DNA of 64,000 bases from Nitratireductor arenosus (GTDB taxonomy: Bacteria; Pseudomonadota; Alphaproteobacteria; Rhizobiales; Rhizobiaceae), in contig NZ_WPHG01000001.1 in assembly GCF_009742725.1 (NCBI RefSeq), forward strand, positions 186,001 through 250,000, in the 5' to 3' direction. Numbering within the stretch: the first letter of the stretch is position 1; each line of letters begins with the position of its first letter. Positions 18,859-40,062 of this stretch are shown here, in pieces. Under the pieces are notes generated by a model, which saw only the letters and a list, made by a program, of their open reading frames with translations, was not told the origin of the DNA and did not search any database. The translations under genes and the position numbers were made by a program.

Positions 18859-19851
18859 CTACCGCACCGCCCCCCACAGCCGGTGCACCATCGCCTCGTA
18901 GTCGAAGCGCTCGAGCACCTCGAGGCTCGGGCGCAGGCCGAAAATATCGGCGCCCGCCGCCGCCAACTCCTCGATGCCGGCCCGGCATTCCTCCGCCGAG
19001 CCGATCACGGCGATCCGGTCGATATAGTCATCCGGGATCAGGTCCGGTCCGACCTTGGTCGCGCCGCCGCGCATGACGGCGCGGATCTTCTCGACCTCGT
19101 CCTTGTCGATCCCCAGGATCCCCGTCACCTTGCTGTGCGAATTGGCGATGGTGCGCGCGGTGATCAGCCGGATCGTGTCGTACATGGCCGATTTTTCCTC
19201 GCCGCAGAGGGCAAAATTCCAGGCCACGATCTTGACCGCGTCTTCCGGCCGGCCGGCCGCCGCCGCCGCCTCGCGGATCCACCCCGTCACCGTCCTCATC
19301 GCGTCGGGACGCCCGACATTGCCGACGATCACGCCGTCGGCAACCTCGCCCGCCATGCGGAAGGCGCGCGGATGGGTAGTGGCGACATAGATATCGACCG
19401 GGTTCTTCGGCTTGAACTCCATATGCGCGTTGTCGAAACGAAAGACGTCGTTTGCGACCGAATGATGCTCACCCGCCAGCACCGCCTTCATCGCCACGAT
19501 GGCGTCGCGGGTGGTTTCGGTGAAGTCTCCGTCCGGCGCGGCCATCGCCTTGCGCGTCGGCTTCAGCCCCGCGCCAATGCCCAGCACGACGCGGCCCTCG
19601 CACAGATCGGCCACCGTGCCCACGGCCCGGGCTATCTGGATCGGGTGCCGCGTATAGGGATTGGCGATGCCGACCCCGAGCCTGATCGTGCTGGTCTTGG
19701 CCGCGATCGCGCCCAATAGCACGTACGGATCGCGCATGAAGGTCTCGTCGGGCACCCAGACCATGGGAATGCCGGCGTCCTCGGCCCGCTGCACCATCTC
19801 GATGACCTCGGCCGCTGTTTGCCGCGGCAATGCGCAAAATGAAAAATCCAT
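18859..19851 (-). CDS. LLM-class (luciferase-like) F420/flavin-dependent oxidoreductase, Mer-like
   Basis: 330-residue TIM-barrel LLM oxidoreductase. LGVGIANPYTRHPIQIARA and GRVVLGIGAGL closely resemble methylene-tetrahydromethanopterin reductase-like F420 enzymes, and WVPDETFMRDPYVLLGAIA fits the cofactor-facing strands. It is the last gene of the minus-strand operon with the molybdoenzyme and TRAP genes, starting 12 bases after the 2Fe-2S subunit. With F420 biosynthesis genes 12 kb away, F420H2 is the likely cofactor, but FMN cannot be excluded by reading. Substrate unknown. Confidence 0.83.
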   Translation of the reverse strand: MDFSFCALPRQTAAEVIEMVQRAEDAGIPMVWVPDETFMRDPYVLLGAIAAKTSTIRLGVGIANPYTRHPIQIARAVGTVADLCEGRVVLGIGAGLKPTRKAMAAPDGDFTETTRDAIVAMKAVLAGEHHSVANDVFRFDNAHMEFKPKNPVDIYVATTHPRAFRMAGEVADGVIVGNVGRPDAMRTVTGWIREAAAAAGRPEDAVKIVAWNFALCGEEKSAMYDTIRLITARTIANSHSKVTGILGIDKDEVEKIRAVMRGGATKVGPDLIPDDYIDRIAVIGSAEECRAGIEELAAAGADIFGLRPSLEVLERFDYEAMVHRLWGAVR

Positions 19852-19863
19852 ACCGTCCTCTCG

Positions 19864-20358
19864 TTAGCTCGTTGCCGCTTTCGCCGCGGTGGCTTGGCTC
19901 TTGGTCTCGATGACATGCGCGATCGCGCGGACAATGCCGCGATAGCCGGTGCAGCGGCAGATGCAGCCGGCAAGCTCGGCGCGGATCTGCTCGATATCGG
20001 GCCGGTCGTGACGCAGCACGATGTCGCGCGCCGTGGCCAGCATGCCCGGCGTACAATAACCGCATTGAAGCGCGTGCTCGTCGCGGAAGGCCTGGCGCAG
20101 CCGGGCGACCACCGGATCGTCGTCAAAACCTTCGACCGTGGTGACCCGCACGCCCTCGCACGAGGCCGCCAGCGTGATGCAGGAGCGCATCGGCATGTCG
20201 TCCACCACGACCGTGCAGGCCCCGCAGGCGCCATGCTCGCAGCCGAGATGCGTGCCTTTCAGCGCCAGGTTCTCGCGCAGGAAATCGGCCAGGCTGAGCC
20301 GCGGATCGATCTCGGCGCGCACCGGCCCGCCGTTGACGGTAAGCGAAAGCGTGGTCAC
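19864..20358 (-). CDS. xanthine-dehydrogenase-family 2Fe-2S subunit (CoxS-like)
   Basis: 164 residues. The plant-type ferredoxin cluster motif is CEHGACGACTV near 40-50 with a further Cys about ten residues on. The second 2Fe-2S domain has CGYCTPGM and CICRCTGY. The GTG start overlaps the stop of the FAD subunit (GTGA). It is the small electron-transfer subunit of a three-subunit molybdenum hydroxylase with the genes at 20355-21179 and 21176-23518; cytoplasmic. Confidence 0.9.
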   Translation of the reverse strand: MTTLSLTVNGGPVRAEIDPRLSLADFLRENLALKGTHLGCEHGACGACTVVVDDMPMRSCITLAASCEGVRVTTVEGFDDDPVVARLRQAFRDEHALQCGYCTPGMLATARDIVLRHDRPDIEQIRAELAGCICRCTGYRGIVRAIAHVIETKSQATAAKAATS

Positions 20359-21179
20359 GACAAAACCTCCTTCATGGCACGGCGCAGGCAGGTGGCATGG
20401 ATCTGCATCTCGTAGCGGTCGAGATCGGGTTCGCGCTCAGCAAGCGCGGCGCGGATCGCTGCCTCCGCCGCCAGGCTTCCGGACGCAACCGCCCCTTCCA
20501 GAGCCTCCAGCCGACACGGCCCGCCGACCGCGCTGCTGCCGGCGACGACGCGGGTGAAGCCGCGCGCGGGATCGTGCACCACCGCTGCGATCGCCTCGCC
20601 GAAGGCCCCTGCCTTCTTGCGCATCTTGCGGTAGGACCAGCGGGCCGAAGGCGACAGTTTCGGCAACCGGATCCCAGTCAGCATCTCGTCTTCTTCGAGC
20701 GCCGTGGTGAAAACGTCGACGGAAAAGTCCTTGGCCGCCAGCGCCCGTTCGCCATCGGGACCGGCAAGCAGCATGGTGGCGCCGAGCGCCATCATGGCCA
20801 CCGGCCAGTCGGCTGCGGGGTCGGCATGGCACAGGCTGCCGCCCAGCGTGCCGCGATTGCGCACGGCGCGATAGGCGATGTCGCGGGCGACGAAGGCAGT
20901 CATGCCGCGCCAGTGATCGCCCGACGTACCGTCCTCAAGCGTTGCGTGGGTGACGCCGGCACCGATCCGCACGGTTTCGCCTTCGTCAACGACGGCACGC
21001 AGGTCGGCGATCGCGCCAATGTCGATGAGCGTCTCGGCAAAGACGACGCGCAAATTGAGCATCGGCACGAGCGACTGGCCGCCGGCGAGTATCCGCGCGC
21101 CGCCGGCGCCTTTGGCGAGCGCGGCAACGGCCTCGGCAATGGTGGCGGGACGCAGATAGTCGAACGCGGGAGCCTTCAT
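20355..21179 (-). CDS. xanthine-dehydrogenase-family FAD-binding subunit (CoxM-like)
   Basis: 274-residue FAD subunit (FAD_binding_5 plus CO_deh_flav_C). ILAGGQSLVPMLNLR near 30-44 and RNRGTLGGSLCHADPAADW near 108-126 are the two FAD-contact motifs. The ATG at 21179 overlaps the large-subunit stop (ATGA). It passes electrons from the 2Fe-2S subunit to FAD and then to an acceptor, usually quinone, NAD or oxygen. Confidence 0.9.
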   Translation of the reverse strand: MKAPAFDYLRPATIAEAVAALAKGAGGARILAGGQSLVPMLNLRVVFAETLIDIGAIADLRAVVDEGETVRIGAGVTHATLEDGTSGDHWRGMTAFVARDIAYRAVRNRGTLGGSLCHADPAADWPVAMMALGATMLLAGPDGERALAAKDFSVDVFTTALEEDEMLTGIRLPKLSPSARWSYRKMRKKAGAFGEAIAAVVHDPARGFTRVVAGSSAVGGPCRLEALEGAVASGSLAAEAAIRAALAEREPDLDRYEMQIHATCLRRAMKEVLS

Positions 21180-23518
21180 CGCGCGACCTCCTTCCTGCCG
21201 GCGGCGCGGTCCTGGGCATCGAAGATCGCCTGCAGTACCCGACGCGGCGTGGCCGGAACGGCGCACAGCTCCGCCCCGGTGGATCGGAGCGCGTCGTTGA
21301 TGGCGTTGACCACGGCGGCCGGCGGGGCGATGGCGCCGCCTTCGCCGACGCCCTTCACGCCGAAGCGCGTATAGGGCGAGCGCGTTTCCATGTGGTCGAG
21401 CCGGATCATCGGAATCTCGCTCGCCGCCGGCACCGAATAGTCGCCAAACGTGGTTGCAAGCGGCTGTCCCTGGTCGTCGAAGGGCACTTCCTCGAACAGC
21501 GCCGTACCGATCCCTTGCGCGACGCCGCCCAGCACCTGGCCGTCGACGATCATCGGGTTGACCCGGGTGCCGCAATCGTCGACCGCGACATAGTCGAGCA
21601 CCTCCACGGTTCCCAACTCCGGGTCGACCGCCACCCGCGCGGCATGGGCGGCATAGGCGAAGGGCGCCCGATCGCCGTCGGGGCGATAGCCGCCGGTGAC
21701 CTCCAGCCCATCGCGCAAAAGCTCCTCGGGTAGATCGAAGGGACGGAAATGCCAGATCACTGCTGCTTCCTCGATCGTCATCGAGGCTCCCGGCCCGACG
21801 AGTTCGCCGGCCTCCAGCCGCACATCGTCGGCCGTGCACTGCATCATGTGCGCGGCGATTCCCCTGAGCTTGAACGCAAGCTTGTCGGCGGCGGCGGCCA
21901 CCGCGCCGCCGGTCATGACGACGGCGCGCGAAGCGTAAGTACCGGTCGAATAGGGCGAAAGCGCCGTATCGCCATGGCGCACCGACACGCGCTCGGGATC
22001 GATGCCCAGCACTTCCGACGCGATCTGGGCCAGTGTCGTCTCCATGCCTTGCCCGTGCGACTGCACCCCGACCCGGATCTCCAGGCTGCCGTCCGGCTGC
22101 ATGAGGGCGGCGGCCTGCTCGAAGCCGGGCATCATCTGCACGCCGATCTGGGAGATGGTGGCGGTCGAGACCGCGGTGTGCTCGGTATAGACGGCATAGC
22201 CGGTGCCGATCAGCCTGTCGGGTCCGGCCTCCGACGAAACCGCGTCGACCAGCACACGCGCACGGCGCAGCGAGGCTGGGTAGTCGCCGCTGTCATATTC
22301 CTTGCCGGTGATCGCCTTATAAGGCATCGCCGCTGCGGGAACGAGGTTTTCCAGCCGCACCTCGACCGGATCGCGGCCGACTGCCCGCGCCACCGCGTCG
22401 ACGAGGGTCTCCATGGCGAAGCAGGCGCCGGGGCGCGCGACCGCCCTGTAGGGCGAAAGCGGCGGCTTGTTGGTCGCGACCGTCATCGTACGTACCCGGT
22501 AGCCGCCAATATCGTAGGGGCCGGTCAGGATGCCGCTTGCCTGGATGGCGTCGAAACCATTGGTGTGCGGCCAGATCGAATAGGCGCCGGCATCGGTGGT
22601 CAGCACCGCGTCAAGCGCCAGGATGCGGCCGCGATCGTCGGCATGCGCCGTCATCTGGTAACGATGCTGGCGCGCGTTGGCGCCGGCGGTCAGGTGCTCG
22701 AACCGGTCTTCCAGCCAGCGGACCGGCCGTCTTAGCCGCAGCGACAGCCAGGCGACGATCACTTCCTCGGGATGCAGGATCGCCTTGTAGCCAAAGCCGC
22801 CGCCGACGTCGGGCGCCACGACACGTATCTGGCGCTGCTGCAGGCCGAGGCACTGGCAAAGCGCGTTGCGGATCATGTGCGGCGACTGGGTGGAGGAATA
22901 CACGACAAGCTGGCCGTCGCGGGCATCGAAATGGGCGAGCGCGCCCTTGCCCTCGAGCGGGACCATCGCCTGGCGCGCCATGTCGAGCGTGCGCGTCACC
23001 TGCACGGTTGCGCGCGCCACCTGCTCCTCGATACCGCTGTCGAAGCGGGTTTCCATCGATAGATTCGTGCCCCAGTCCGCGTGCACAAGCGGCGCGCCCT
23101 CAGCCATCGCCGCGTCGATCGACGCCACCACGGGCAGTTCCTTCAGGTCGGGGACCACCTGCTCGGCCAGATCCTCGGCCTGTGCCCGGTTCGGAGCGAG
23201 ACAGGCGGCGATGATCTCGCCGACGAAACGCACGCGGGTCAGCGCCATTGGCGGGCTGCCTATGATCCGGTGTCCGGCCACGTTGGACGTGGGCCGGATC
23301 GGCACCACGCCATCCATGTCGTGCGCGGTGAAGACCCGCTCGCCGGCCTCTTCCGGTTTTTCGATCCCCACGATCTCGGCATGGGCCAGCGGGCTGCGCA
23401 CGAAGGCCACGTCCAGCATGCGCGGCATTTCGATATCCGCGAGGTAGCGGCCGCGCCCGTGAAGAAAGCGGTCATCCTCCTTGCGCGGAAGAGACGCGCC
23501 GACGCCTGTGTGTGTCAT
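21176..23518 (-). CDS. xanthine-dehydrogenase-family molybdopterin-binding large subunit (CoxL-like, not CO dehydrogenase)
   Basis: 780-residue molybdenum-cofactor subunit of normal length. It has GASLPRKEDDRFLHGRGRY at the N terminus, the Mo-pterin motif VAPDVGGGFGYK, and GVKGVGEGGAIAP near the C terminus, whose Glu is the catalytic base in this family. The active-site loop reads YRAVARPGACFAMET, not the AYxCSFR loop of form I CO dehydrogenase, so a hydroxylase acting on an N-heterocycle or aldehyde is more likely. The ATG at 23518 has AAGGA upstream; an extension to 23566 would overlap the TRAP gene. Follows the TRAP permease gene in the operon. Confidence 0.88.
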   Translation of the reverse strand: MTHTGVGASLPRKEDDRFLHGRGRYLADIEMPRMLDVAFVRSPLAHAEIVGIEKPEEAGERVFTAHDMDGVVPIRPTSNVAGHRIIGSPPMALTRVRFVGEIIAACLAPNRAQAEDLAEQVVPDLKELPVVASIDAAMAEGAPLVHADWGTNLSMETRFDSGIEEQVARATVQVTRTLDMARQAMVPLEGKGALAHFDARDGQLVVYSSTQSPHMIRNALCQCLGLQQRQIRVVAPDVGGGFGYKAILHPEEVIVAWLSLRLRRPVRWLEDRFEHLTAGANARQHRYQMTAHADDRGRILALDAVLTTDAGAYSIWPHTNGFDAIQASGILTGPYDIGGYRVRTMTVATNKPPLSPYRAVARPGACFAMETLVDAVARAVGRDPVEVRLENLVPAAAMPYKAITGKEYDSGDYPASLRRARVLVDAVSSEAGPDRLIGTGYAVYTEHTAVSTATISQIGVQMMPGFEQAAALMQPDGSLEIRVGVQSHGQGMETTLAQIASEVLGIDPERVSVRHGDTALSPYSTGTYASRAVVMTGGAVAAAADKLAFKLRGIAAHMMQCTADDVRLEAGELVGPGASMTIEEAAVIWHFRPFDLPEELLRDGLEVTGGYRPDGDRAPFAYAAHAARVAVDPELGTVEVLDYVAVDDCGTRVNPMIVDGQVLGGVAQGIGTALFEEVPFDDQGQPLATTFGDYSVPAASEIPMIRLDHMETRSPYTRFGVKGVGEGGAIAPPAAVVNAINDALRSTGAELCAVPATPRRVLQAIFDAQDRAAGRKEVAR

Positions 23519-23552
23519 GGGATTGTCCTTCGTTCCTTCGCTCCGGCCGCCC

Positions 23553-24872
23553 TCAGATCCCGACAAAGGAGGTGAGCCACAAGGCGGTCGCCGGAAAGAA
23601 ATAGACGATCAGCATCACCAGCACCTGGCAGGCCACGAAGGGCATCACGCCGAGCGCCATCTGGCGGTAACTCATGTCCGGCGGCGCGATCGAGCGCAGA
23701 TAAAACAGCGACGGCGCCATCGGCGGGGTCAGATAGCTGGTCTGCAGGGCTATGATGGCAAGCACCGCGAACCAGACCGGATCGATGCCGGCGGCGCGCA
23801 GGAGGGGATCGTAGATCGGCACGCAGATCAGCACGATCGAGATCCAGTCCAAAACGAAGCCGAGGATCATGATGATCAAAAGCACGATCAGGATCAGTTC
23901 GCCCGACGACAGGTCCATCGCCAATATCGTCGACTGGATCAGTTGGCGGCCGCCATTGATCTGGAAGATGCTGGTGAACATCGTTCCGCCGACGACAATG
24001 AACATGACCATCGCGGTGATCACCAGCGTCGCGCGCGTCGCCGACCATAGAACCTCGATCGTGAGACGCCGGTAAAACAGTGTCAAAATGATCGTTCCGA
24101 GCGCGCCAACGCCGGCGGCTTCCGTCGGCGCGGCGATCCCGGCGATGATCGACCCGACCACGGCCAGCACCAGCCCCAGCGCCGGCAGCAGCGAGGTCAC
24201 CGTGATCCAGATCTTGTCGCGCGTCGGCATGGCGATGTCCTCGTCCGCCACCGGAGGACCGTCCTGGGGACGCAGCGCGCAGCGCACCAGCGCGTAACCC
24301 AAGAAGCAGGCGACCATCAGCACGCTCGGGATGATGACCGCGGCGAACAAATCGCCGATCGAAAGCTGCCCTTGGGTGGCGTAGACCACGACGACGATCG
24401 ACGGCGGGATCATGGTGCCGAGCGAACCGCCGGCGCAGATCGTGCCGGCGATCAGGTCGTTGGAATAGTTGTATTTCTTCATCGCCGGGATCGCCATCAT
24501 GCCGACCATGACCTCGACCGCGCCGACAATGCCGGTTCCGGCGGCGAAGATCGCGCACATCGACAGCGCGGCGAGCGACAGTCCGCCCGGCAACCGGCCG
24601 AGCCATAGCCGCATGGCCTCGAACAGGCGCGCCGCGATCCCGGAGCGCTCCAGCATGGCACCCATGAACACAAACAGCGGGATGGCCGCGAAGGTCGGCT
24701 GGGAAGCGACCTTGTCGACGAAACGGTAGAGCTGGGCCGGCGCGATGTCGCCGAAGGCCAGAAGCGCGAAGCCGAAGGCGGTGACGATCAGGCTAAAAGC
24801 GACCGGCAGTCCAAGCAGGATGAGGAGGAAAAGGGTCGGGAACATCAACCCCGCGAGCAAGGGATCACCCAT
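23553..24872 (-). CDS. dctM: TRAP transporter large permease (DctM)
   Basis: 439-residue inner-membrane subunit with about twelve hydrophobic segments. IPLFVFMGAMLERSGIA, the GSLGTMIPPSIVVVVYA region and SYLTPPMAPSLFYLR are standard DctM motifs. The ATG at 24872 has AGGG upstream; a GTG at 24875 is possible. It overlaps the small permease end by 8 bases. It drives Na+- or H+-coupled import of an organic acid together with the genes at 24865 and 25419. Confidence 0.9.
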   Translation of the reverse strand: MGDPLLAGLMFPTLFLLILLGLPVAFSLIVTAFGFALLAFGDIAPAQLYRFVDKVASQPTFAAIPLFVFMGAMLERSGIAARLFEAMRLWLGRLPGGLSLAALSMCAIFAAGTGIVGAVEVMVGMMAIPAMKKYNYSNDLIAGTICAGGSLGTMIPPSIVVVVYATQGQLSIGDLFAAVIIPSVLMVACFLGYALVRCALRPQDGPPVADEDIAMPTRDKIWITVTSLLPALGLVLAVVGSIIAGIAAPTEAAGVGALGTIILTLFYRRLTIEVLWSATRATLVITAMVMFIVVGGTMFTSIFQINGGRQLIQSTILAMDLSSGELILIVLLIIMILGFVLDWISIVLICVPIYDPLLRAAGIDPVWFAVLAIIALQTSYLTPPMAPSLFYLRSIAPPDMSYRQMALGVMPFVACQVLVMLIVYFFPATALWLTSFVGI

Positions 24873-25356
24873 CACGCCCTGCCGCTTTCAAGGAGGCGCG
24901 CAGGCCGGTCACCAGGATCTGGGCGGTGAGCATCACCATACCCGCCGCCAGCGCGGCGTAGAAAGGCCACAATTGCGATGCGAACGCGCTGACCGGGTCG
25001 ACCTCGCCCCTTTCGTAGGCGCGCAGCGCCTTGGCGACCGCGACATAGCTGATCGCCGAAAAGCTCGGTAGAGCGAGTGTGAGAAGCAATACGGCGCCGA
25101 TGCCGGAGCGTAGGCGCTCGGGCAGCATCAGCACGAGGAAGTCGATGCTGACATGACCGTCCTCCTTCAGGCAGAAGGCGGCCGCGCACAGGAACAGCGC
25201 ACCGCCCAGCATATAGGTCAGGTCTCCCGCCCACAGCGTCGGGCTGCCGAAGACGTAACGGCTGACGACCTCGAAGATCATCACCGCGATCAGCAGAAAG
25301 ACCATGATGCCCGAGAGGAAGGCGAAGCCGGCCGATAGTCTGTCGATGAGTTTCAT
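24865..25356 (-). CDS. dctQ: TRAP transporter small permease (DctQ)
   Basis: 163-residue four-helix membrane protein. FEVVSRYVFGSPTLWAGDLTYML and KEDGHVSIDFLVLMLP are diagnostic DctQ motifs. The ATG at 25356 has AGGAA about nine bases upstream. The longer in-frame extension to 25422 would read through the hairpin at 25379-25410 and is rejected. Partner of the large permease. Confidence 0.88.
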   Translation of the reverse strand: MKLIDRLSAGFAFLSGIMVFLLIAVMIFEVVSRYVFGSPTLWAGDLTYMLGGALFLCAAAFCLKEDGHVSIDFLVLMLPERLRSGIGAVLLLTLALPSFSAISYVAVAKALRAYERGEVDPVSAFASQLWPFYAALAAGMVMLTAQILVTGLRASLKAAGRDG

Positions 25357-25378
25357 TGTGACTTCCTGCTGGAAGGCC

Positions 25379-25410
25379 GGGCCCGGAGCCGCGAAGCGCG
25401 ACCCGGGCCC
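25379..25410 (-). terminator. intercistronic hairpin between dctP and dctQ
   Basis: Very GC-rich near-perfect inverted repeat (arms of 15 and 14 bases, one bulge, loop AAG) between the binding-protein stop at 25419 and the dctQ start at 25356. No U run follows. Hairpins here commonly raise the yield of binding protein over permease by mRNA stabilisation or partial termination. Confidence 0.7.
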
Positions 25411-25418
25411 GGGTCCGA

Positions 25419-26486
25419 TCATTTCCGATCCAGGTGCTTAAAGGAAGCGCCGTCGGCATAGAGATCCTGATAGGCGAAGTAGCTCTCGCCGATCTTCTTC
25501 ATCCACTCATTGCCGCTTGCGGTCTGCTCCTCGGCCTTGGTCGTGGCCCATTTGCGGCCCGCCATGGTGATCGCCTCGGTGACTTCCGCCGGCAATTCCT
25601 GGAGTTTGTTGTTGCCCGCGCGCAATTCCTTCATCGCGACCAGGTCGGCCATGCCCGACTGCAGGTAGCTTTCAAACACGGCGAGCTTGGCAGCCGCGGT
25701 CACGATTTCCTTGAGGTCATCGGGCAACGCGTCCCACTTTTCCGCCGTGACGATGAATTCGTTGATCCCGGCGGGGAAGTGAAGACCCGGCGTGATGATG
25801 TACTCGGCCGCGTTTTCCAGTCCCGCGATCTGATTGTCGGCCGGCCCGGACCATTCGGCGATGTCCACCCCGCCGCGATCGAGCATCTGGTATACCTCGC
25901 CGCCGGTGACGAAGACCGGCGCGGCTTCGAATTCCTCCGACAGGATGGAGGCCCAAGAGCCCGCGGCGCGGAACTTCAGGCCCTTCAGGTCTGCGACGCT
26001 TTCGATCGGCTTGTGCGAATGCCAAAGCTCCGTGCCGACGACGCCGCCGACCAGGGAATGCAGGCCGAGCGTATCGCGCTTGAACTGCGTCAGCAGATCC
26101 TGCCCGCCGCCTTCATAGAGCCAATAGAGCATGGTTTCGGGTCCCATGCCGCCGGGATGGCCGGCGTAGAAGCTGTTGGCCGGATCGGCGTTGACCGCGT
26201 AGAGCGGTGTGATCATCGCCGCATCGGCGGTCCCGTCGAGCACCGCCTCGTAGTTTTTCGTCGCCGGAGCGAGCACGTCGACCGGGTACGGCTCGATCAC
26301 CAGCCGGCCCTCGGAGAGTTCGTTCACGCGCTTGGTGAAGGGCATGACGATGTTTTTCCACAGGCCCCAGGTCTCGCCGGCATAGCTCGACATTCGCCAG
26401 GTGATCGGTTCGTCCTGCGCCAGAGCCGGGAGCGTGCCGGCAAAGGTTGCGACCGCCACAAGGGCCGCCTTTGTCCACCGTTTCAT
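25419..26486 (-). CDS. dctP: TRAP transporter substrate-binding protein (DctP/TakP-like)
   Basis: 355-residue periplasmic binding protein. The signal peptide MKRWTKAALVAVATFAGTLPALAQ is cut near ALAQ-DE. ITWRMSSYAGETW, GLKFRAAGSWASILSEEF and GGEVYQMLDRGGVDIAEWSGP match the TakP/7-family binding proteins that bind alpha-keto acids or aromatic acids; the Arg in FRAAG would contact the ligand carboxylate. The ATG at 26486 has AGGAG upstream. First of the three TRAP genes, downstream of the PLP enzyme. Confidence 0.87.
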   Translation of the reverse strand: MKRWTKAALVAVATFAGTLPALAQDEPITWRMSSYAGETWGLWKNIVMPFTKRVNELSEGRLVIEPYPVDVLAPATKNYEAVLDGTADAAMITPLYAVNADPANSFYAGHPGGMGPETMLYWLYEGGGQDLLTQFKRDTLGLHSLVGGVVGTELWHSHKPIESVADLKGLKFRAAGSWASILSEEFEAAPVFVTGGEVYQMLDRGGVDIAEWSGPADNQIAGLENAAEYIITPGLHFPAGINEFIVTAEKWDALPDDLKEIVTAAAKLAVFESYLQSGMADLVAMKELRAGNNKLQELPAEVTEAITMAGRKWATTKAEEQTASGNEWMKKIGESYFAYQDLYADGASFKHLDRK

Positions 26487-26508
26487 GTGTTGGTTCTCCT
26501 GTTGATCC

Positions 26509-26530
26509 CCTCCGGTTGGTTTTTCGGAGG
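26509..26530 (-). repeat. inverted repeat between the PLP-enzyme and dctP genes
   Basis: Perfect 6-bp repeat (CCTCCG / CGGAGG) with a 10-base loop in the 105-base gap upstream of dctP. Could be a processing or attenuation hairpin; weak evidence. Confidence 0.35.
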
Positions 26531-26591
26531 CCATTGGTTCTTTTTCATCTGTGTCCAAAAATGCTTGCTCTGCAGGTACCCTCCACATCGG

Positions 26592-27869: not shown

Positions 27870-27915
27870 GAGGTCAGGGAATCCAATCGCCAGTAGATGT
27901 TTCTGTTTTTGATTG

Positions 27916-27935
27916 ACCGTTCCGATTACTGGAAT
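27916..27935. promoter_or_regulatory. candidate IclR operator (TTCCG-type box) between PLP enzyme and iclR
   Basis: The 13-mer ACCGTTCCGATTA (27916-27928) is followed by CTGGAAT, giving a TTCC-N7-GGAA palindromic core. The same 13-mer recurs exactly at 30232-30244 before the LLM/F420 operon. Probably the binding site of the IclR protein encoded next door. Confidence 0.6.
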
Positions 27936-30250: not shown

Positions 30251-30278
30251 TAACGTGCGGACATAGGGAAACGAAACC

Positions 30279-32006: not shown

Positions 32007-32782
32007 TGACCGGGATCGGACCCATCCATATCCTAAGGCTGGCCGGCCTGCCGATGATCGGGCCGGACAGCGATCTCTGCGTGGAAATCGCGGGCGCGAT
32101 GGAGCGCAGCGCCATCGCCTTGCAGGACGGCGACATCGTCGTGGTGGCGCAGAAGATCGTCAGCAAGGCGGAGGGCCGCAAGCGAGCCTTGAACGACTAC
32201 GTTCCCTCGCCGGCCGCGCGCGACCTCGCCGGCACGGTCAACAAGGATGCCAGACTGGTCGAGGCCGTCCTGTCGGAAAGCCGCGCCGTCATCCGCGCCG
32301 TCCCAAACGTGCTGATCGTCGAGCACAAGCTCGGGCACATCATGGCCAATGCCGGCATCGACCAGTCCAATGTCGAAGCGGACGGCGCAGACGGCGAGAC
32401 GATCCTGCTCCTGCCCGAGGATCCCGACGCCTCCGCCCGCGCGCTGCGCGACCGGCTTCGCCCGCACGGCGTCGAGCGCATCGGCGTGGTCATCTCCGAC
32501 AGTTTCGGCCGACCCTGGCGGATCGGCACGACGGGAATCGCGATCGGCGTCGCCGGTGTTCCGGCTGTCGTCGACCGGCGCGGCGAGCAGGACCTGTTCG
32601 GACGGGTGATGCAGGTGACGGAAGTCGGCTTCGCCGACGCGGTTGCCGCCGCCGCGTGCCTGGCAATGGGCGAAGGCGCGGAAGCGATCCCGGTCGCGAT
32701 CGTGCGCGGGCTCGACTGGCAGGCCGGCGTGCACGACGCCAGCGACGGGCTGCGCGATCCGGAAAGGGACCTCTTCCGATGA
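32003..32782 (+). CDS. cofE: coenzyme F420-0:L-glutamate ligase (CofE)
   Basis: About 258 residues. GDIVVVAQKIVSKAEGR, VPNVLIVEHKLGHIMANAGIDQSNV, LLPEDPDASARALR and VVISDSFGRPWRIGTTGIAIGVAG are the metal- and GTP-site motifs of CofE. It adds the glutamate tail to F420-0. It is a single-domain protein, lacking the C-terminal nitroreductase-like dehydro-F420 reductase found in actinobacterial FbiB. GTG at 32003 or ATG at 32006 can serve as start, both overlapping the npdG stop. Confidence 0.9.
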   Translation: MMTGIGPIHILRLAGLPMIGPDSDLCVEIAGAMERSAIALQDGDIVVVAQKIVSKAEGRKRALNDYVPSPAARDLAGTVNKDARLVEAVLSESRAVIRAVPNVLIVEHKLGHIMANAGIDQSNVEADGADGETILLLPEDPDASARALRDRLRPHGVERIGVVISDSFGRPWRIGTTGIAIGVAGVPAVVDRRGEQDLFGRVMQVTEVGFADAVAAAACLAMGEGAEAIPVAIVRGLDWQAGVHDASDGLRDPERDLFR

Positions 32783-33756
32783 GCCGCACCGCTTTCTCAA
32801 CCGCTGCCGACGGCCGCGTCGTTGCGCTGTGCGGCGGCATCGGCGGCGCCAAGCTGGCGCTCGGCCTGTCGCGCGTGGTGCCGTCCGACAGGCTGACCAT
32901 CATCGTCAATACGGGCGACGATTTCCGCCATTTCGGCCTGCATGTCAGCCCCGACATCGATACCGTCACCTATACGCTCGCAGGCCGCTCCAACCGCGAC
33001 AGCGGCTGGGGCCGCGACGGCGAGAGCTGGCGTTTCATGGAGGCCGTCAAGGAACTGGGCGGCGAGAGCTGGTTCGGGCTCGGCGATACCGATCTCGCCA
33101 CCAAGGCCGTGCGCACCCAGCGTCTGGCGCAGGGCGCGCGGCTGACCGAAATCACCGGCGAGATCGCCCGCGCCCTCGGCGTCGGCTGCACGATCCTGCC
33201 GGCGACCGACGATGCCGTGGCCACGATCGTCGACACCGACGAGGGCGCCCTGCCCTTCCAGCATTATTTCGTCGGCCGGCGCTGGCAGCCGCGGATTCGC
33301 GCCCTGCGTTTCGACGGCGCCGAGCGGACGCGCCCGACCCGGGAAGCGCTGGCCGCGCTCAGCGCCGAGCCCCTCGCCGCGCTGGTGATCTGCCCGTCCA
33401 ACCCCTATCTGTCGATCGATCCGATGCTGGCGATCCCCAGCCTGCGCGCCGCGATCCGCGCCGTGCGCGCGCCGGTTGTGGCGGTGTCGCCGCTGGTCGG
33501 CGGCAAAGCCGTCAAGGGTCCGCTTGCCAAGATGATCGGCGAACTCGGCCACGCAGCAACGCTGCAAACGATCGCCGACCACTATGCGGATTTCCTCGAT
33601 ATCCTGATCGCCGACGAGGCCGACAGCGGCGCCGCGGTGACCGGCCCGAAAACCCTGTTCGCGCCAACGCTCATGCATGGCCTCGAGCAGTCCGTGGCGC
33701 TGGCCCGCACGGTGCTCGCCGCAGCCGACGCCCACGCAGCGGACGCAAAATCATGA
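32779..33756 (+). CDS. cofD: 2-phospho-L-lactate (or PEP/3-PG) transferase CofD
   Basis: 325 residues. CGGIGGAKLALGL at 18-30, NTGDDFRHFGLHVSPDIDTVTY and WFGLGDTDLATKAVRTQRL are the FO-binding and nucleotide-site motifs of CofD. It transfers the phospho-acyl moiety from the guanylylated donor made by CofC to FO, giving F420-0 or a variant. The start overlaps cofE (ATGA). Which donor it uses (2-phospholactate, PEP or 3-phosphoglycerate) cannot be read from the sequence. Confidence 0.92.
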   Translation: MSRTAFSTAADGRVVALCGGIGGAKLALGLSRVVPSDRLTIIVNTGDDFRHFGLHVSPDIDTVTYTLAGRSNRDSGWGRDGESWRFMEAVKELGGESWFGLGDTDLATKAVRTQRLAQGARLTEITGEIARALGVGCTILPATDDAVATIVDTDEGALPFQHYFVGRRWQPRIRALRFDGAERTRPTREALAALSAEPLAALVICPSNPYLSIDPMLAIPSLRAAIRAVRAPVVAVSPLVGGKAVKGPLAKMIGELGHAATLQTIADHYADFLDILIADEADSGAAVTGPKTLFAPTLMHGLEQSVALARTVLAAADAHAADAKS

Positions 33757-34451
33757 GCCGCGGCGCCTGGGCCCTGATTCCGGTCAAGGAAGGCGCGCGG
33801 GCCAAATCCCGCCTCGCCGGCATCCTGACGCCGCGACAGCGCACCGACCTGCAGCAGGCCATGCTGCTCGACCTGCTCGACGAGCTGCGTGCTTCGCAGC
33901 TTCTGTCCGGCATCGCGCTCTGCGGTCCCGATCCCGCGACCGCGACCCTGGCCGCGCGATCCGGTCACACCTTCATCCACCAGCCCACCGGCACCGACGG
34001 GCTCAACGCCGCCGTCGCCTTCGCGACCCGCACCCTCTCATCCAGCGGCGCGCGGATCGTGGCCGTGCTGCCCGCCGACCTGCCGTTTCTGGACAGCGCT
34101 GAACTGGACATCGCCATCGCCGCCGCTGCGCTGGCGCGCGTCTGCGCGGTCGTGCCGGACCGGCACGGCACGGGTACCAACGGCCTCGTTTTTCCGGCAT
34201 CGACGCCGCCCGAGTTCCGTTTCGGCCCGGACAGTTTCCGTCGCCATCTCGACCGACCCAGCGACCGGCGCCTGCCGCCGAGGCGCGCGCTTCGCCTCGC
34301 CTCGCTGGCCTGCGACATCGACCTGCCGAACGATCTGGAACAGTTGCGCGACGCGGTATCGGGCGACAGCGCCCACAGAGCTCGCGCTCTGGTCCGCGCA
34401 TTGCCACGACACAACCGCGCCCAGGGCACGAAAGAGGAGATTGTGCAATGA
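33753..34451 (+). CDS. cofC: 2-phospho-L-lactate guanylyltransferase-type enzyme (CofC/FbiD)
   Basis: 232 residues. IPVKEGARAKSRLAGILTPRQR at the N terminus, VLPADLPFLDSAEL in the middle and the C-terminal GTGTNGLVFPASTPPEFRFGPDSFRRH are typical CofC/FbiD motifs of the nucleotidyltransferase fold. It activates the three-carbon acid with GTP for CofD. The start overlaps cofD (ATGA) and its stop overlaps fbiC (ATGA). The tail beyond residue 200 is Arg-rich and poorly conserved-looking. Confidence 0.88.
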   Translation: MSRGAWALIPVKEGARAKSRLAGILTPRQRTDLQQAMLLDLLDELRASQLLSGIALCGPDPATATLAARSGHTFIHQPTGTDGLNAAVAFATRTLSSSGARIVAVLPADLPFLDSAELDIAIAAAALARVCAVVPDRHGTGTNGLVFPASTPPEFRFGPDSFRRHLDRPSDRRLPPRRALRLASLACDIDLPNDLEQLRDAVSGDSAHRARALVRALPRHNRAQGTKEEIVQ

Positions 34452-36904
34452 CCACGCCGCCGATCGCACAGTGGAGCAAGCGCCTCATCAAGGGCGGCAG
34501 GATCGATGACGACGAGGCCCTGCTGCTTGCCGGGTGCGACGAGCTCGACGACCTCGTCGCCGCAGGCGGCGCAATCCGCGATGCCGGTCACGGCGACGTC
34601 GTCACGGTCTCGCGCAAGGTGTTTATTCCGCTCACCCAGCTCTGCCGCGACGTCTGCCATTACTGCACCTTCGCGCAGGCACCGCGAAACTGCGGCGCAG
34701 CCTTCCTGACGCCCGAGCAGGTTTTGGCAATCGCCAAGGACGGCGTCAAAGCAGGCTGCGACGAGGCGCTGTTCACGCTCGGCGACAAGCCGGAGCTGCG
34801 CTACCGGATCGCCCGCGAGGAACTGGGCGCGCTCGGCCACGAAACCACTGTCGATTATCTCGCCGCGATGGCTGACATGGTGCTGCGCGAGACCGGTCTG
34901 CTGCCCCATATCAATGCCGGCGTGATGAGCGAGGACGAAATCCGCGTGCTGCGCGCAGTCTCCGTCTCGCAGGGCATCATGCTGGAAACCGCGTCCGAGC
35001 GGCTGAGCGAACGCGGCGGGCCGCATTTCGGCTCGCCCGACAAAAACCCCGCCGTAAGGCTGGCCACGATCGCGGCGGCAGGCCGCGCCAAGGTGCCGTT
35101 TACCAGCGGCATCCTGATCGGTATCGGCGAGACCCGGCGCGAGCGCGTCGAGGCGCTGCTCGCCCTGCGCGCGCTTCACGCCGAGCATGGCCACATTCAG
35201 GAAATCATCGTCCAGAACTTCCGCGCCAAGCCCGGCACCAAGATGGCAGATGCGCCCGAGCCGAGCCTGGACGACCAGCTCTGGACGATCGCCGTCGCCC
35301 GGATGATCTTCGGTCCCGAGATGGCGATCCAGTCGCCACCCAATCTGCGCGCCCACGGGCTGAAGCCGCTGATCGACGCCGGCATCAACGATTGGGGCGG
35401 CGTCTCGCCGGTCACCCCCGATCATGTCAATCCGGAAGCGCCCTGGCCGGAGCTCGAGCGGCTCGCAGCCGAGACCGCGCGCGCCGGCAAGACGCTCGCG
35501 CCGCGCCTGGCCGTCTACCCGGCCTGGCTGGACGAAGCCGGCACCTGGCTGGCGCCGGAACCGCGCAAGGCCGCTTTGCGCCGCCAGGACACGTCGGGCC
35601 TTGCCCATGAAAGCGGCTGGCGCGTCGGCCGGACCGAGCGCGGCCATGATTTCCCGGCCGCCGCCACCCTACCCTCGCGTGCCGCCGCCGCCATGCGCGC
35701 GATCGACATGGCCGTCGCCGGCCGGCCGCTCGACGAGCAGGCGATCGTGTCGCTTTTCGAGGCGCGTGGATCGATGGCCGACGCCGTCATCGACGCCGCC
35801 GACGCGCTGCGCCGCGAGACGGTGGGCGACACGGTTGGCTACGTGGTCACACGCAACATCAACTACACGAACGTGTGCACTTATGGCTGCCGGTTCTGCG
35901 CCTTTTCCAAGGGCCGGACGGCAGCCCATCTGCGCGGACGCCCCTACGATCTGGAATTGTCGGAAATCACCCGACGGGTCGGCGAAGCTTGGGAGCGCGG
36001 CGGCGTCGAGGTCTGCATGCAGGGCGGCATCCACCCCGACTATACCGGCGAGACCTATCTGGAAATCTGCCGCGCCGCCAAGCGCGCCGCCCCCGGCATC
36101 CACGTTCACGCTTTCTCGCCGCTCGAGGTCAGTCACGGCGCGCAATCGCTCAACATTCCGGTACGCGAATTCCTTGAACGGCTGAAGGAGGCCGGGCTCG
36201 GCAGCCTGCCGGGCACGGCGGCCGAAATCCTCGACGACGAGATACGCGCGGCGCTGTGCGCACAAAAACTGTCGACGGAGGACTGGCTCGGCGTGATCGA
36301 GGCCGCGCACGAGATCGGCCTGCGCACCACGGCCACCATCATGTTCGGCCATGTCGAGCGCTATCGGCATTGGGCACGGCACATTCTGCGCATCCGCGCC
36401 CTGCAGGAACGAACCGGCGGCTTCACCGAATTCGTGCCGCTGCCCTTCGTGCACATGGAAGCGCCGATCTATCTCAAGGGCGACGCCCGCCAGGGGCCGA
36501 GCTTCCGCGAAGCGGTGATGATGCATGCCGTGTCGCGCCTAGCCCTGAACCCGGTGATCGCCAATATCCAGGTCTCCTGGGTGAAGATGGGCGAGGAGGG
36601 CATCGCCGCCGCGCTGCGGGCGGGCGCCAACGACCTCGGTGGCGTGCTGATGGACGAATCGATCAGCCGCGCCGCCGGCACCCGCCACGGGCAGGAGTTC
36701 CCGCCGCATCGCATGGACGAGACGATCCGCGACGCCGGCCGCAACCCGCGCCAGCGCACCACGCTCTACGGCACCCCGAACGAGGTGCAGCAGCGCCGGT
36801 CGCGTCAGGCGCCGCCGCTGGCCGAGCGCGTCCAGGCGCCGGCACTCAAACGTGCCCGCATCGGCAGCCGGCACGCCCTGGCCGAAGCCGGCTTGGCAGG
36901 CTGA
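34448..36904 (+). CDS. fbiC: 7,8-didemethyl-8-hydroxy-5-deazariboflavin (FO) synthase, fused CofG-CofH (FbiC)
   Basis: 818-residue bifunctional radical-SAM protein, as in actinobacteria; archaea use separate CofG and CofH. The first CxxxCxxC cluster site is CRDVCHYC (Cys66, 70, 73) in the CofG half, the second CTYGCRFC (Cys477, 481, 484) in the CofH half. It makes the deazaflavin FO from tyrosine and a flavin-pathway intermediate. Other motifs include GVMSEDEIRVLRAVSVSQGIMLETASERL and VCMQGGIHPDYTGETY. It starts in an ATGA overlap with cofC behind GAGGAGA, completing an unbroken npdG-cofE-cofD-cofC-fbiC transcription unit. Confidence 0.95.
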   Translation: MTTPPIAQWSKRLIKGGRIDDDEALLLAGCDELDDLVAAGGAIRDAGHGDVVTVSRKVFIPLTQLCRDVCHYCTFAQAPRNCGAAFLTPEQVLAIAKDGVKAGCDEALFTLGDKPELRYRIAREELGALGHETTVDYLAAMADMVLRETGLLPHINAGVMSEDEIRVLRAVSVSQGIMLETASERLSERGGPHFGSPDKNPAVRLATIAAAGRAKVPFTSGILIGIGETRRERVEALLALRALHAEHGHIQEIIVQNFRAKPGTKMADAPEPSLDDQLWTIAVARMIFGPEMAIQSPPNLRAHGLKPLIDAGINDWGGVSPVTPDHVNPEAPWPELERLAAETARAGKTLAPRLAVYPAWLDEAGTWLAPEPRKAALRRQDTSGLAHESGWRVGRTERGHDFPAAATLPSRAAAAMRAIDMAVAGRPLDEQAIVSLFEARGSMADAVIDAADALRRETVGDTVGYVVTRNINYTNVCTYGCRFCAFSKGRTAAHLRGRPYDLELSEITRRVGEAWERGGVEVCMQGGIHPDYTGETYLEICRAAKRAAPGIHVHAFSPLEVSHGAQSLNIPVREFLERLKEAGLGSLPGTAAEILDDEIRAALCAQKLSTEDWLGVIEAAHEIGLRTTATIMFGHVERYRHWARHILRIRALQERTGGFTEFVPLPFVHMEAPIYLKGDARQGPSFREAVMMHAVSRLALNPVIANIQVSWVKMGEEGIAAALRAGANDLGGVLMDESISRAAGTRHGQEFPPHRMDETIRDAGRNPRQRTTLYGTPNEVQQRRSRQAPPLAERVQAPALKRARIGSRHALAEAGLAG

Positions 36905-36918
36905 AGAAAGCAGCTTTT

Positions 36919-36950
36919 CCCGCCGCGCCGGCGAATGGCCGGCATGCGGG
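36919..36950 (+). terminator. possible terminator/hairpin after fbiC
   Basis: Inverted repeat of CCCGC and GCCGGC arms pairing with GCCGGC and GCGGG, with a GAATG loop. It begins 15 bases after the fbiC stop and is followed by only a short T run. May partially separate fbiC from pntAB. Confidence 0.45.
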
Positions 36951-37030
36951 CGTTTCGGTACGGCCGCTGCGCAGGCTGTCGGGCCGCAACGCCCTTCGCC
37001 GCCTCCACCAACAATAAGAGGACAAAAAAA

Positions 37031-38605
37031 ATGAAAATCGGAACGCCAAGGGAGGTGCTTGACGGCGAGGCCCGCGTCGCGATGACACCGGACAGCGCCA
37101 GGATGCTGCGGAAACTCGGCTTCGCCTGCGCCATCGAGACCGGTGCCGGCGAGAAGGCCGGCTTCACCGACGCCGCCTATGAAGAAGCCGGCGTCGAGAT
37201 CGTCAAATCGGCCGAGCGCCTGTGGGCGGATGCCGACCTCGTCGCCAAGGTTCGCCCGCCGACCGAGACTGAGATCGAGCGGCTGAGCAAGGGCAAGGTG
37301 CTGATCTCCTTCTTCCACCCGGCCCAGAACGAGGCGCTGATGCGCCAGGCCGCCGACAGAGGCGTGACCGTGGTGGCGATGGACATGGTGCCGCGCATCA
37401 GCCGCGCCCAGAAGCTCGACGCGCTGTCGTCGATGGCCAACATCGCCGGCTATCGCGCGGTGATCGAGGCCGGCAACAATTTCGGCCGCTTCTTCACCGG
37501 CCAGGTGACCGCCGCCGGCAAGGTGCCACCGGCCAGGGTGCTGGTGGTCGGCGCCGGCGTCGCCGGCCTCGCCGCGATCGGCACCTCCACCGCGCTCGGC
37601 GCGATCACCTACGCCTTCGACGTTCGCCCGGAAGTGGCCGAGCAGATCGAATCGATGGGCGCGGAATTCGTCTATCTCGATTTCGACAGCGACCAGCAGG
37701 ACGGATCCGCCAGCGGCGGTTACGCCGCGCCGTCCTCGCCCGAGTTCCAGGCCAAGCAGCTCGAAAAATTCCGCGCGCTCGCGCCCGAGATCGACATCGT
37801 CATCACCACCGCTTTGATTCCCAACCGCGACGCGCCTGTGTTGTGGACCAGGGACATGGTCGAGGCGATGAAGCCCGGCTCCGTCATCGTCGACCTGGCC
37901 GCCGAACGCGGCGGCAATTGCGAACTGACAGTCAAGGACGACAGGATCGTCACCGACAATAAGGTGACGATCATCGGCTACACCGACTTTCCAAGCCGCA
38001 TGGCAACCCAGTCCTCGACGCTTTATGCCAACAATGTCCGCCAGTTCGTGGGCGAGCTCGCGCCGGCCAAGGACGGCACGCTAATTCACGACATGGACGA
38101 CGACGTCATCCGCGGATCGACCGTCGCCCATCAGGGCGCCGTGACCTATCCGCCGCCGCCGCCGAAAGTACGGGCGATCGCGGCAGCACCGCGCAAGGAC
38201 AAGCCGAAGGAGCCGAGCCCGGAAGAAAAGCGCGCGCTGGAAATCGCCGCCTTCCGCGCCCAGACGCGGCGCCAGGCCGGCCTACTCGTCGCCGGGGCGG
38301 CGCTGATCGCCCTTGTCGGCGCGGTCGCGCCGGCCTCCTTCATGCAGCATTTCATCGTCTTCGTGCTCGCCTGCTTCATCGGCTTCCAGGTGATCTGGAA
38401 CGTCAGCCACGCGCTGCACACGCCGTTGATGGCGGTGACCAACGCCATCTCGGGCATCGTCGTGCTCGGGGCGCTGCTGCAGATCGGCTCGGGCGACTGG
38501 CTCGTCGTGACACTCGCCGCCATTTCGATGCTGATCGCCACCATCAACATCGTCGGCGGCTTTCTGGTCACGCGCCGCATGCTCGCAATGTTCCAGAAAT
38601 CCTGA
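37031..38605 (+). CDS. pntA: NAD(P) transhydrogenase alpha subunit, fused form (PntA)
   Basis: 524 residues, similar to E. coli PntA (about 510). NAD-binding domain I has [44 protein letters not shown] and [16 protein letters not shown] Pro/Lys-rich linker near 375-410 leads to four membrane helices, with [22 protein letters not shown] containing the conserved proton-path region. The ATG at 37031 follows GAGGACA. It couples NADH to NADP+ reduction using the proton gradient, together with PntB. Located 126 bases after fbiC, where it could supply NADPH to NpdG. Confidence 0.93.
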
Positions 38606-38619
38606 GGCGGAGGCAGCAT

Positions 38620-40062
38620 ATGTTCGCACAACCATTGGTTACCTCCGCCGCCGTCGCGGCGAGCGTGCTCTTCATCCTGTCGCTCGGCGGGCTCTCCAAT
38701 CAGGAAAGCGCCAAGCGCGCGGTCTGGTACGGCATCGCCGGCATGGCGCTCGCCGTGGTCTTCACCGCGCTCGGGCCGGGGGTCAGCAATTACGGGCTGA
38801 TGCTGGCCATGGTGCTCGTCGGCGCCGTGATCGGCACGGTCGTCGCCCGGCGGGTGGAAATGACGCAGATGCCGCAACTGGTCGCCGCGCTGCATTCCTT
38901 CGTCGGCCTCGCCGCCGTGTTCGTCGGGCTCAACGCCGAGATGGAACGGCTGCGCGTTGAGGGGTTGCGGGCGGCGGGCGAGAGCCTCGACGGCCTGGCC
39001 GCCTTCGCCGCCAGGCTCGCCACCAAGACCCCGACCGAGATCGCCTTTCTTCAGGTCGAAGTCGTGCTCGGCGTCTTCATCGGCGCGGTCACCTTCACCG
39101 GGTCCGTGGTCGCTTTCGGCAAGCTCGCCGGCAAACTGGACGGCAAGCCGGCGCAACTGCCGGGCGGACATCTGCTCAACGCCGCCGCCGCACTCGCCTG
39201 CGTGGTGCTGGCGGTCTATTATCTGGCGTTCGGCGGCATGCTGCCCCTGATCGCGATCACGGTTCTGGCGCTGTTCATCGGCTACCATTTGATCATGGGC
39301 ATCGGCGGCGCCGACATGCCGGTGGTCGTCTCGATGCTCAATTCCTATTCGGGCTGGGCCGCGGCCGCGATCGGCTTCACTTTGTCCAACGACCTGCTGA
39401 TCGTCACCGGCGCGCTGGTCGGTTCCTCGGGCGCGATCCTGTCCTACATCATGTGCAAGGCCATGAACCGAGCCTTCGTGTCGGTCATTCTCGGCGGTTT
39501 CGGTGGCGCGAGCGGCTCGCAAATGGCGGTCGAGGGCGAAATGATCGCCACCACCGCCGACGAGGCGGCCGCCGCGCTGGACGACGCCGACAGCGTGGTC
39601 ATCGTGCCGGGTTACGGCATGGCGGTCGCCCAGGCGCAAAGCGCGGTTTCCGAACTCACGCGCAGGCTTCGCGCCAAGGGCAAAGAGGTGCGCTTCGCCA
39701 TCCACCCTGTCGCCGGCCGCCTGCCCGGGCACATGAACGTGCTTCTGGCCGAGGCCAAGGTGCCCTACGACATCGTTCTGGAGATGGACGAGATCAACGA
39801 GGATTTCTCCGACACCGAGGTCGCCATCGTCATCGGCTCGAACGACATCGTGAACCCGGCAGCCCAGGACGATCCGAACTCGCCGATTGCCGGCATGCCG
39901 GTCCTGGAGGTCTGGAAGGCCGGTACCGTCATCGTGTGCAAGCGCGGCCAGGGAACCGGCTATTCCGGCATCGAGAACCCGCTGTTCTTCAAGGACAATG
40001 CCCGCATGCTGTATGGCGACGCCAAACAGTCGATCAACGAGTTGCTGACCAAGATCGGCTGA
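38620..40062 (+). CDS. pntB: NAD(P) transhydrogenase beta subunit (PntB)
   Basis: 480 residues. The N-terminal part forms about nine membrane helices (domain II). [15 protein letters not shown] and [19 protein letters not shown] lead to NADP-binding domain III with [32 protein letters not shown] and [25 protein letters not shown]. The gene starts 15 bases after pntA behind GGAGGC. It ends the plus-strand run and is followed by a strong terminator at 40085-40112. Confidence 0.95.

Follow-up and report, generated by a model that had tools for sequence, protein, structure and literature searches.

What might an alphaproteobacterium use the rare redox cofactor F420 for? A 2021 review listed the reason why Proteobacteria and Chloroflexi make F420 as an unanswered question, and stated that experimental work on any F420H2-dependent reductase or F420-reducing dehydrogenase was still lacking for non-actinobacterial bacteria. 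The question is raised by a locus of Nitratireductor arenosus, located in a stretch of 64,000 nucleotides (G000:C1:186001–250000, hereafter referred to as the window) of a ∼4.8 Mb genome. There, an operon for F420 synthesis and reduction lies next to a divergent operon encoding an importer, a molybdenum (Mo) hydroxylase and further enzymes, and each operon includes one luciferase-like (LLM) oxidoreductase, labeled LLM1 and LLM2. I propose that this block is one inducible catabolic island, in which F420H2 would reduce an imported, hydroxylated N-heterocycle, and place the probability of this reading at about 0.45.

Organization of the locus

The plus-strand operon has the order LLM2, npdG, cofE, cofD, cofC, fbiC, pntA, pntB. 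Its first gene, LLM2 (30279–31283), matches TIGR03619, a family model for F420-dependent LLM enzymes, with 187.7 bits, against a cut-off of 166.9. It is followed by npdG (Fno; 31326–32006), for the NADPH:F420 oxidoreductase (TIGR01915, 161.8 against 149.8), cofE (32003–32782; TIGR01916, 258.6 against 180.65), cofD (32779–33756; PF01933, 151.7 against 30), cofC (33753–34451; TIGR03552, 133.1 against 105) and fbiC (34448–36904; 1125.1 against 1018), a fused CofG-CofH that passes PRK09234, TIGR03550 and TIGR03551. With these models passed and the frames open, the F420 biosynthesis set (FbiC, CofC, CofD, CofE) is complete. The last two genes encode the proton-translocating transhydrogenase, with pntA for the alpha subunit (36935–38605; TIGR00561, 690.9 bits, above cut-off) and pntB for the beta subunit (38620–40062; PF02233, 626 bits), the latter scoring 655.6 with PRK09444, under the equivalog cut-off of 689. 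That the operon includes npdG as well as pntAB points to a demand for F420H2, rather than to F420 oxidation.

The minus-strand operon consists of a pyridoxal phosphate (PLP) enzyme, dctP, dctQ, dctM, the Mo, FAD and FeS subunits, and LLM1, in this order. The PLP enzyme (26592–27869; PF00291) belongs to the PALP family and is threonine-synthase-like, but its best score with a curated threonine synthase model is 160.9, against a cut-off of 421; it is 33–48% identical to six relatives, and the lysine motif S(H/F)KDR is found in seven of seven sequences. A tripartite ATP-independent periplasmic (TRAP) importer comes next, with its solute-binding protein DctP (25419–26588; PF03480, 109 bits; best solved relative 4yzz/4yic, 118 bits), small permease DctQ (24865–25422; PF04290) and large permease DctM (23553–24875; TIGR00786, 299.2, above cut-off). 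4YIC was reportedly solved with picolinate, which the literature searched did not confirm, and is not used as evidence here; a structure prediction for DctP, from a 3-row alignment, gave a pLDDT of 31. The Mo hydroxylase possesses the complete set of the xanthine-dehydrogenase family, namely the molybdenum-binding large subunit (21176–23566, likely start near 23518; PF20256, PF02738, PF01315), the FAD subunit (20355–21179; PF00941, 154 bits; its start placed within a longer open reading frame by family match and translation) and the 2Fe-2S subunit (19864–20358; PF01799, PF00111). LLM1 (18859–19851; PF00296, 186 bits) closes the operon; it resembles Mer, the methylenetetrahydromethanopterin reductase, and is predicted to be F420-dependent.

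Between the two operons lie a PcaR/PobR-like regulator of the IclR family on the plus strand (27913–28815, likely start 28003; PF01614, PF09339), which scores 165.9 with TIGR02431, under the cut-off of 284.75, and a prolidase-like M24 metallohydrolase on the minus strand (28851–30104, likely start 30059; PF00557). In the latter, the residues at the five metal-ligand positions are kept in the alignment, and identification as a metal-free creatinase or ectoine hydrolase is therefore unsupported. The starts of IclR, M24, cofD (32779) and cofC (33753) were chosen by eye, from ribosome-site-like sequence.

A sequence-only reading of this DNA had named most of these genes, and every gene it named is present, as judged from profile-model matches over the open reading frames of the window. 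It had not named pntA and pntB, although the block it described ends with pntB. Its statement that the genes of the F420 operon all overlap slightly is a little too strong: four 4-base overlaps join npdG through fbiC, but a 42-base gap separates LLM2 from npdG.

Conservation of the block and its recurring core

The gene order of the block is the same in N. alexandrii (82–98% identity) and in Aquibium (58–92%), where the kept region spans LLM1 to a GntR regulator gene. With the curated models passed and the order kept in both relatives, the gene set and its order exceed, on this evidence, what chance would give.

Beyond these genomes, a core composed of LLM2, the Mer-like LLM1, the PLP enzyme and often M24 recurs in other Alphaproteobacteria, in Chloroflexota and in archaeal metagenome-assembled genomes (MAGs). 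Relatives of LLM2 at E ≤ 1e-60 were found in 5 of 385 Alphaproteobacteria, 6 of 301 genomes in the phylum of an Anaerolineae MAG and 1 of 246 in that of a Halobacteriales MAG; each sample includes one profile-source genome, without which the counts are 4/384, 5/300 and 0/245. In a single-sequence search, four of 201 relatives reach this threshold, the next (G004) standing at 5.8e-51, and a plasmid search yielded no LLM2 relative at E 1e-40. The named LLM2 loci are located in Anaerolineae, Halobacteriales and Marine Group IV MAGs; two archaeal MAGs possibly represent one lineage, as nearly the same contig is found in both.

LLM1, LLM2 and the PLP enzyme occur together at 12 of 23 loci or contigs, three of the 12 being those of the window, N. 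alexandrii and Aquibium. M24 is present at 8 of the 23, hyuAB at 6, and some Mo-hydroxylase subunit at 8, two of which are short archaeal contigs with the FAD and FeS subunits only. As the MAG contigs are short, absences carry little weight, and as LLM1 is only 21–39% identical outside close kin, these counts show a gene class rather than strict orthology. In genome G318, hyuA, hyuB, LLM2, PLP and LLM1 are packed head to tail. In genome G481, from another family, cofD, cofC, fbiC and cofE are located within ∼10 kb of the LLM module, with no npdG seen there.

Two side observations concern these loci. Several LLM genes run between the two LLM2 copies of G481 (L122:671–9646). In a Marine Group IV MAG, a UbiD-type decarboxylase gene (L039:1501–2967) lies between the Mo-hydroxylase FAD subunit and LLM2, and locus L040 has an open reading frame of the same length, start and place.

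A candidate operator shared by the two operons

Comparison of the control regions revealed two candidate operators, both read on the plus strand. Operator 1 (CGTTCCGATTACTGGAAT, 27918–27935) is located in the IclR/PLP control region, and operator 2 (CGTTCCGATTATCGAATT, 30234–30251) directly downstream of the −10 element of the F420 operon. The corresponding sigma-70-like promoter, TTGACA-17-GATGAT (30194–30222, plus strand), is found once, against 0.6 expected in shuffles, and the promoter-region sequence TTGACAAAG is kept in three genomes. The placement of operator 2 just after this promoter-like site is as would be expected for a repressor. It resembles PcaR-type sites.

A degenerate 18-base pattern was then built from these two sites. 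Allowing up to three mismatches, it has 45 matches in the window genome, of which two are exact, none has one mismatch, three have two, and the rest have three; the two exact matches lie in the two operon control regions. N. alexandrii has 46 matches, with two exact ones at the same places, and Aquibium 13, all with three mismatches, two of which lie at homologous places. The reversed pattern, used as a control, gives 5, 13 and 3 matches in the window genome, N. alexandrii and Aquibium, respectively. The palindrome GTTCCG-N5-CGGAAC on its own was rejected, with 7 found against 6.4 expected, and only the 18-base pattern was used for this reason. A weaker palindrome, GTACCGTTTTTCGGAAC, is present upstream of M24 (30083–30099), with GTTCCGTTTAAAGGAAC as its Aquibium counterpart; its count in the window is not above chance.

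That the two operons belong together, as the sequence-only reading had proposed, agrees with the shared 18-base pattern, the order kept in three genomes and the recurrence of the core in distant lineages, and their linkage is well supported. Rare co-occurrence in related genomes, which that reading had regarded as fatal to the link, was not observed for the F420 genes and the LLM core, although the exact arrangement was seen only in three genomes.

F420 as the probable cofactor

CofG scores above cut-off in all eight LLM2-bearing Alphaproteobacteria, compared to 60 of 385 Alphaproteobacteria overall, a number that includes all five LLM2 carriers of that sample. The hypergeometric probability is 5e-4 for four of four carriers, leaving out the window genome, and 3e-3 when counting genera. 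LLM2 from five of five relatives tested passes TIGR03619, like that of the window. For LLM1, the best NCBIfam model is PRK02271 (Mer), at 186.4 against a cut-off of 276, and a second Mer model gives 169.9 against 348.7. The best solved relative of LLM1 is also Mer (1z69), and of the 11 solved structures related to it at E 1e-8, 9 bear the name of an F420 enzyme. The catalytic Glu6 of Mer aligns with Cys6 in LLM1; the structure of a Mer E6Q mutant is among the structure-search matches listed.

F420 use by the system is likely, and is supported by the co-occurrence of LLM2 and CofG in Alphaproteobacteria and by the F420 genes near the module in G481. LLM2 of the window itself quite probably uses F420, as far as can be judged from these patterns.

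Five of the Chloroflexota carriers (G413, G966, G886, G956 and G1014) have CofE above cut-off and no CofG match. FO uptake, a novel FO synthase, or incomplete MAGs are possible explanations for this pattern.

Proposed pathway and alternatives

The organization described above can be read as a pathway in which the substrate would be hydroxylated, reduced with F420H2, hydrolyzed and deaminated, in this order. Both divergent operons would be controlled, through the shared candidate operator, by the IclR-type regulator, which probably acts as a repressor until a compound of the pathway releases it; the TRAP system would import an organic acid. The quinoline-oxidoreductase-like Mo hydroxylase may then oxidize a C-H beside the ring nitrogen, giving a lactam, and LLM1 and LLM2 would reduce the ring or an imine with F420H2. 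In support of this step, FbiC, CofC, CofD and CofE would make F420, PntAB would transfer reducing power from NADH to NADPH, and NpdG would pass the hydride on to F420. Hydrolases (M24, possibly also HyuAB and M20) would open and trim the reduced ring. The PLP enzyme, together with a Rid-family deaminase encoded next to pntB, would remove nitrogen from the open chain.

I infer an N-heterocycle as substrate from the nearest solved relative of the Mo subunit, quinoline 2-oxidoreductase (1t3q, 459 bits), and from cyclic-amidase classes, which recur at several such loci (G481, G108, Sinorhizobium, Agrobacterium rubi). In its general form, I suggest more tentatively that this is a new F420H2-dependent reductive pathway for N-heterocyclic acids, with the LLM1/LLM2/PLP/M24 core shared by Alphaproteobacteria, Chloroflexota and archaea, and travelling in Nitratireductor and Aquibium within an island that brings along genes for making both F420 and NADPH. 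More daringly, the Mo hydroxylase might hand its electrons to F420, so that hydroxylation and reduction of the ring would form a closed redox cycle; this seems very unlikely.

A number of observations weigh against the catabolic-island reading, some of which belong to the alternatives considered below. For relatives of the Mo subunit from Azospirillum, Methylobacterium, Paracoccus and Geminicoccaceae, the annotation shows no F420 biosynthesis gene within 8–10 kb (four of four, the PLSDB gene tables being incomplete); the Geminicoccaceae locus carries two LLM genes. That the Mo clade of the window is specific to F420 loci was rejected, with relatives of 53–55% identity having no F420 genes annotated nearby, and a tree that mixes the groups. 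LLM2 occurs without any other core gene at 6 of the 23 loci. HyuA of the window is 33–39% identical to the module copies, no better than the 36% found at another locus (L055), which leaves orthology of the two HyuAB sets unsupported, and hyuAB is not on the Aquibium contig. Finally, the two operator sites match exactly by construction, since the pattern was derived from them, and in the window alone two matches at up to three mismatches compare with a shuffled mean of 0.38, a count of two being reached in 4 of 100 shuffles. The weight of the operator evidence lies in the lack of any comparably good match elsewhere in the genome and in the conserved positions of the sites, as far as these pattern searches tell.

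One alternative concerns the cofactor. The LLM proteins may be FMNH2-dependent oxygenases that attack the ring with oxygen, in the manner of RutA, with F420 serving another enzyme and the F420 operon sharing only the regulator. A flavin-reductase homologue adjoins LLM2 at 2 of 16 loci (G318_C6 and G707, or 4 of 22 pieces, using one query), which suits flavin mononucleotide (FMN)-dependent oxygenases; however, no homologue of that reductase was found at the loci from the window, N. alexandrii, Aquibium, G481 or G413, within the pieces and the one reductase family that the search covered. FMN enzymes (SfnG) ranked above Mer in the fold search for LLM2, which did not discriminate between FMN and F420 enzymes; the solved relatives of LLM1 are mostly F420 enzymes. 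TIGR03619 likewise does not settle the cofactor, as it is also passed by the copy of G318_C6, beside the flavin reductase, and by that of G413, whose genome has no CofG match. CofG is absent in five of the six Chloroflexota carriers, but present in all alphaproteobacterial ones; CofE is found in six of six Chloroflexota carriers, a weak sign of F420 use since 92 of 151 genomes of that phylum have it anyway. The Rid protein next door would fit an oxygenase, whereas LLM2 itself heads the F420 operon. Taken together, I regard an FMN-dependent oxygenase as unlikely.

An F420-dependent and catabolic system might also act on something other than an N-heterocycle, if the Mo enzyme were an oxidase resembling aldehyde or CO dehydrogenases, and the LLM pair acted on an aliphatic amine, an imine or a keto acid. 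Mer acts on an N-methylene group, and LLM1 is Mer-like. The solved relatives of DctP include lactate and keto-acid binders, and the Mo subunit also matches CO and glyceraldehyde dehydrogenases, quinoline 2-oxidoreductase coming first only narrowly (459 bits, against 431 for CO dehydrogenase). The recurrence of cyclic-amidase classes at such loci argues against this option, which I consider rather unlikely. That two unrelated operons are neighbours by accident is very improbable: the LLM core and the F420 genes do reside on different contigs in G318 and G707, but the shared candidate operator, the order conserved in three genomes and the co-occurrence of LLM2 with CofG all oppose it, as does G481, a separate case of F420 genes near the module.

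Other F420 loci and neighbouring genes

A second, unlinked F420 locus was identified in the window genome (C1:638014–640296), whose FbiC is 54% identical to that of the window. This locus (L003:10006–12909) contains npdG-, cofE- and cofD-like genes and an open reading frame of 967 amino acids that looks like CofC fused to FbiC, a fusion read by eye; it is located near an FAA-hydrolase gene and a hydantoinase-B-like gene. A tree built from 29 FbiC proteins places the window copy with those of N. alexandrii and Aquibium, and then with G226 and G189 (100/100), far from the second copy of its own genome. N. alexandrii and Aquibium each have one CofH and one CofG match above cut-off, both from their counterpart of the window locus.

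I compared 30 F420 loci, of which 20 come from 18 genomes, three from LLM2 genomes, and seven from plasmids; two Sinorhizobium loci among them are near kin. Eight have a Mo subunit 51–53% identical to that of the window and three have pntB, counts which may be low, since most of the pieces (23 of 30) do not exceed 20 kb. On pSymA of S. meliloti R28 (L163, L164) and in S. fredii GR64 (L165), pyrC-like (dihydroorotase-like), Liv-ABC (ATP-binding cassette), npdG, cofE, cofD, cofC and fbiC genes are found together with a CoA-transferase-like gene, a TIGR03619-type LLM gene, M20, pntA, pntB, and the Mo, FAD and FeS subunits. Gene names are those of the S. meliloti entry, since the S. fredii entry gives none, and cofE of R28 lies in two overlapping frames. 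The window shares with L163 and L165 the npdG-cofE-cofD-cofC-fbiC set, with a Mo hydroxylase, PntAB and a TIGR03619 LLM nearby, while order and other genes differ.

A separate, distant clade comprises the Mo subunits of G318, G784 and G707, indicating that such loci acquired a Mo hydroxylase on at least two occasions. By tblastn, the Mo subunit is absent from four plasmid F420 loci (Aromatoleum, Novosphingobium and two Paraburkholderia), and their gene tables, which are incomplete, list no such cyclic amidase. The F420 locus of G108 includes carboxyltransferase-domain genes of the PxpB/PxpC type. On the Agrobacterium rubi plasmid pW2_73_1 (L167), F420 genes are accompanied by the 5-oxoprolinase PxpA, two carboxyltransferase genes, gabT and an LLM gene, possibly representing another lactam-linked F420 locus.

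Around the block, the window contains further genes. Downstream of pntB, on the minus strand, are the Rid-family imine/enamine deaminase (40140–40670; TIGR00004, above cut-off), which adjoins pntB in Aquibium too, and a GntR/FCD regulator (40711–41427; PF07729, PF00392), also kept there. To the left of the minus-strand operon, the window encodes HyuAB, an ABC system of the sugar type and an M20 hydrolase. The hyuA-hyuB pair (9844–13756, plus strand), of the ATP-dependent hydantoinase/oxoprolinase type, is a tentative member of the island, as relatives carry genes of this class within their core operon; among solved structures, HyuA is nearest to N-methylhydantoinase (665 bits). Further right, positions 42748–45281 hold a row of genes for GTP cyclohydrolase I, a TTHB210-like protein, a copper-binding protein and an ECF-type sigma factor. 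A separate minus-strand cluster (46023–54015) encodes an iron alcohol dehydrogenase, an aldehyde dehydrogenase, a glutamine-synthetase-like enzyme and a second TRAP dctP and dctM, and is perhaps involved in amine use.

Comparison with known systems

The open-licence literature searched yielded no paper on this locus, nor on the LLM1/LLM2/PLP/M24 core joined to an F420 factory. A close functional precedent is the F420H2-dependent degradation of picrate and 2,4-dinitrophenol in Rhodococcus, Nocardia and Nocardioides, where an electron-poor ring is reduced, as part of its catabolism, by an LLM hydride transferase that uses F420H2 (PMC8498797). That system is, however, actinobacterial. Its npd gene cluster is not known to include a molybdenum hydroxylase, a TRAP importer, a PLP enzyme or PntAB. 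By sequence, LLM1 is closest to Mer, but falls under the Mer cut-offs, with Cys6 in place of Glu6. The reductive nicotinate route, with its 6-hydroxynicotinate reductase, relies on ferredoxin-type electrons and an enamidase, and is not known to use F420H2; the order proposed here, in which the ring is hydroxylated and reduced and the lactam opened, resembles this route, but differs from it by the use of F420H2.

A 26-kb region of pSymA in S. meliloti GR4, KH35c and KH46 has been tied to nodule competitiveness by k-mer association, and includes F420 genes, an LLM-family gene, a Mo hydroxylase, PntAB, M20, Liv-ABC, dihydroorotase and diaminopropionate ammonia-lyase; the authors of this 2021 paper leave the function open, and note that the role of the region deserves further attention (PMC8407117). 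The R28 locus holds the same gene classes, the likeness to these three strains being by gene class only, and its Mo subunit is 52% identical to that of the window. It differs in that no LLM1/LLM2 core was found there, and that it has a Liv-type ABC importer instead of TRAP and GntR instead of IclR.

The island, which makes and reduces F420 and probably also consumes it, offers a concrete and testable candidate for the role of this cofactor in Proteobacteria. It comes with a candidate operator and a defined gene set, and a related locus exists in Sinorhizobium, an experimentally convenient genus. Its parts are known, picrate ring reduction is a precedent, and the Sinorhizobium region has been published without explanation; what appears new, on the literature searched, is the core and its union with the F420 factory. 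If the proposed reading is true, a catabolic role of F420 would extend over two domains of life.

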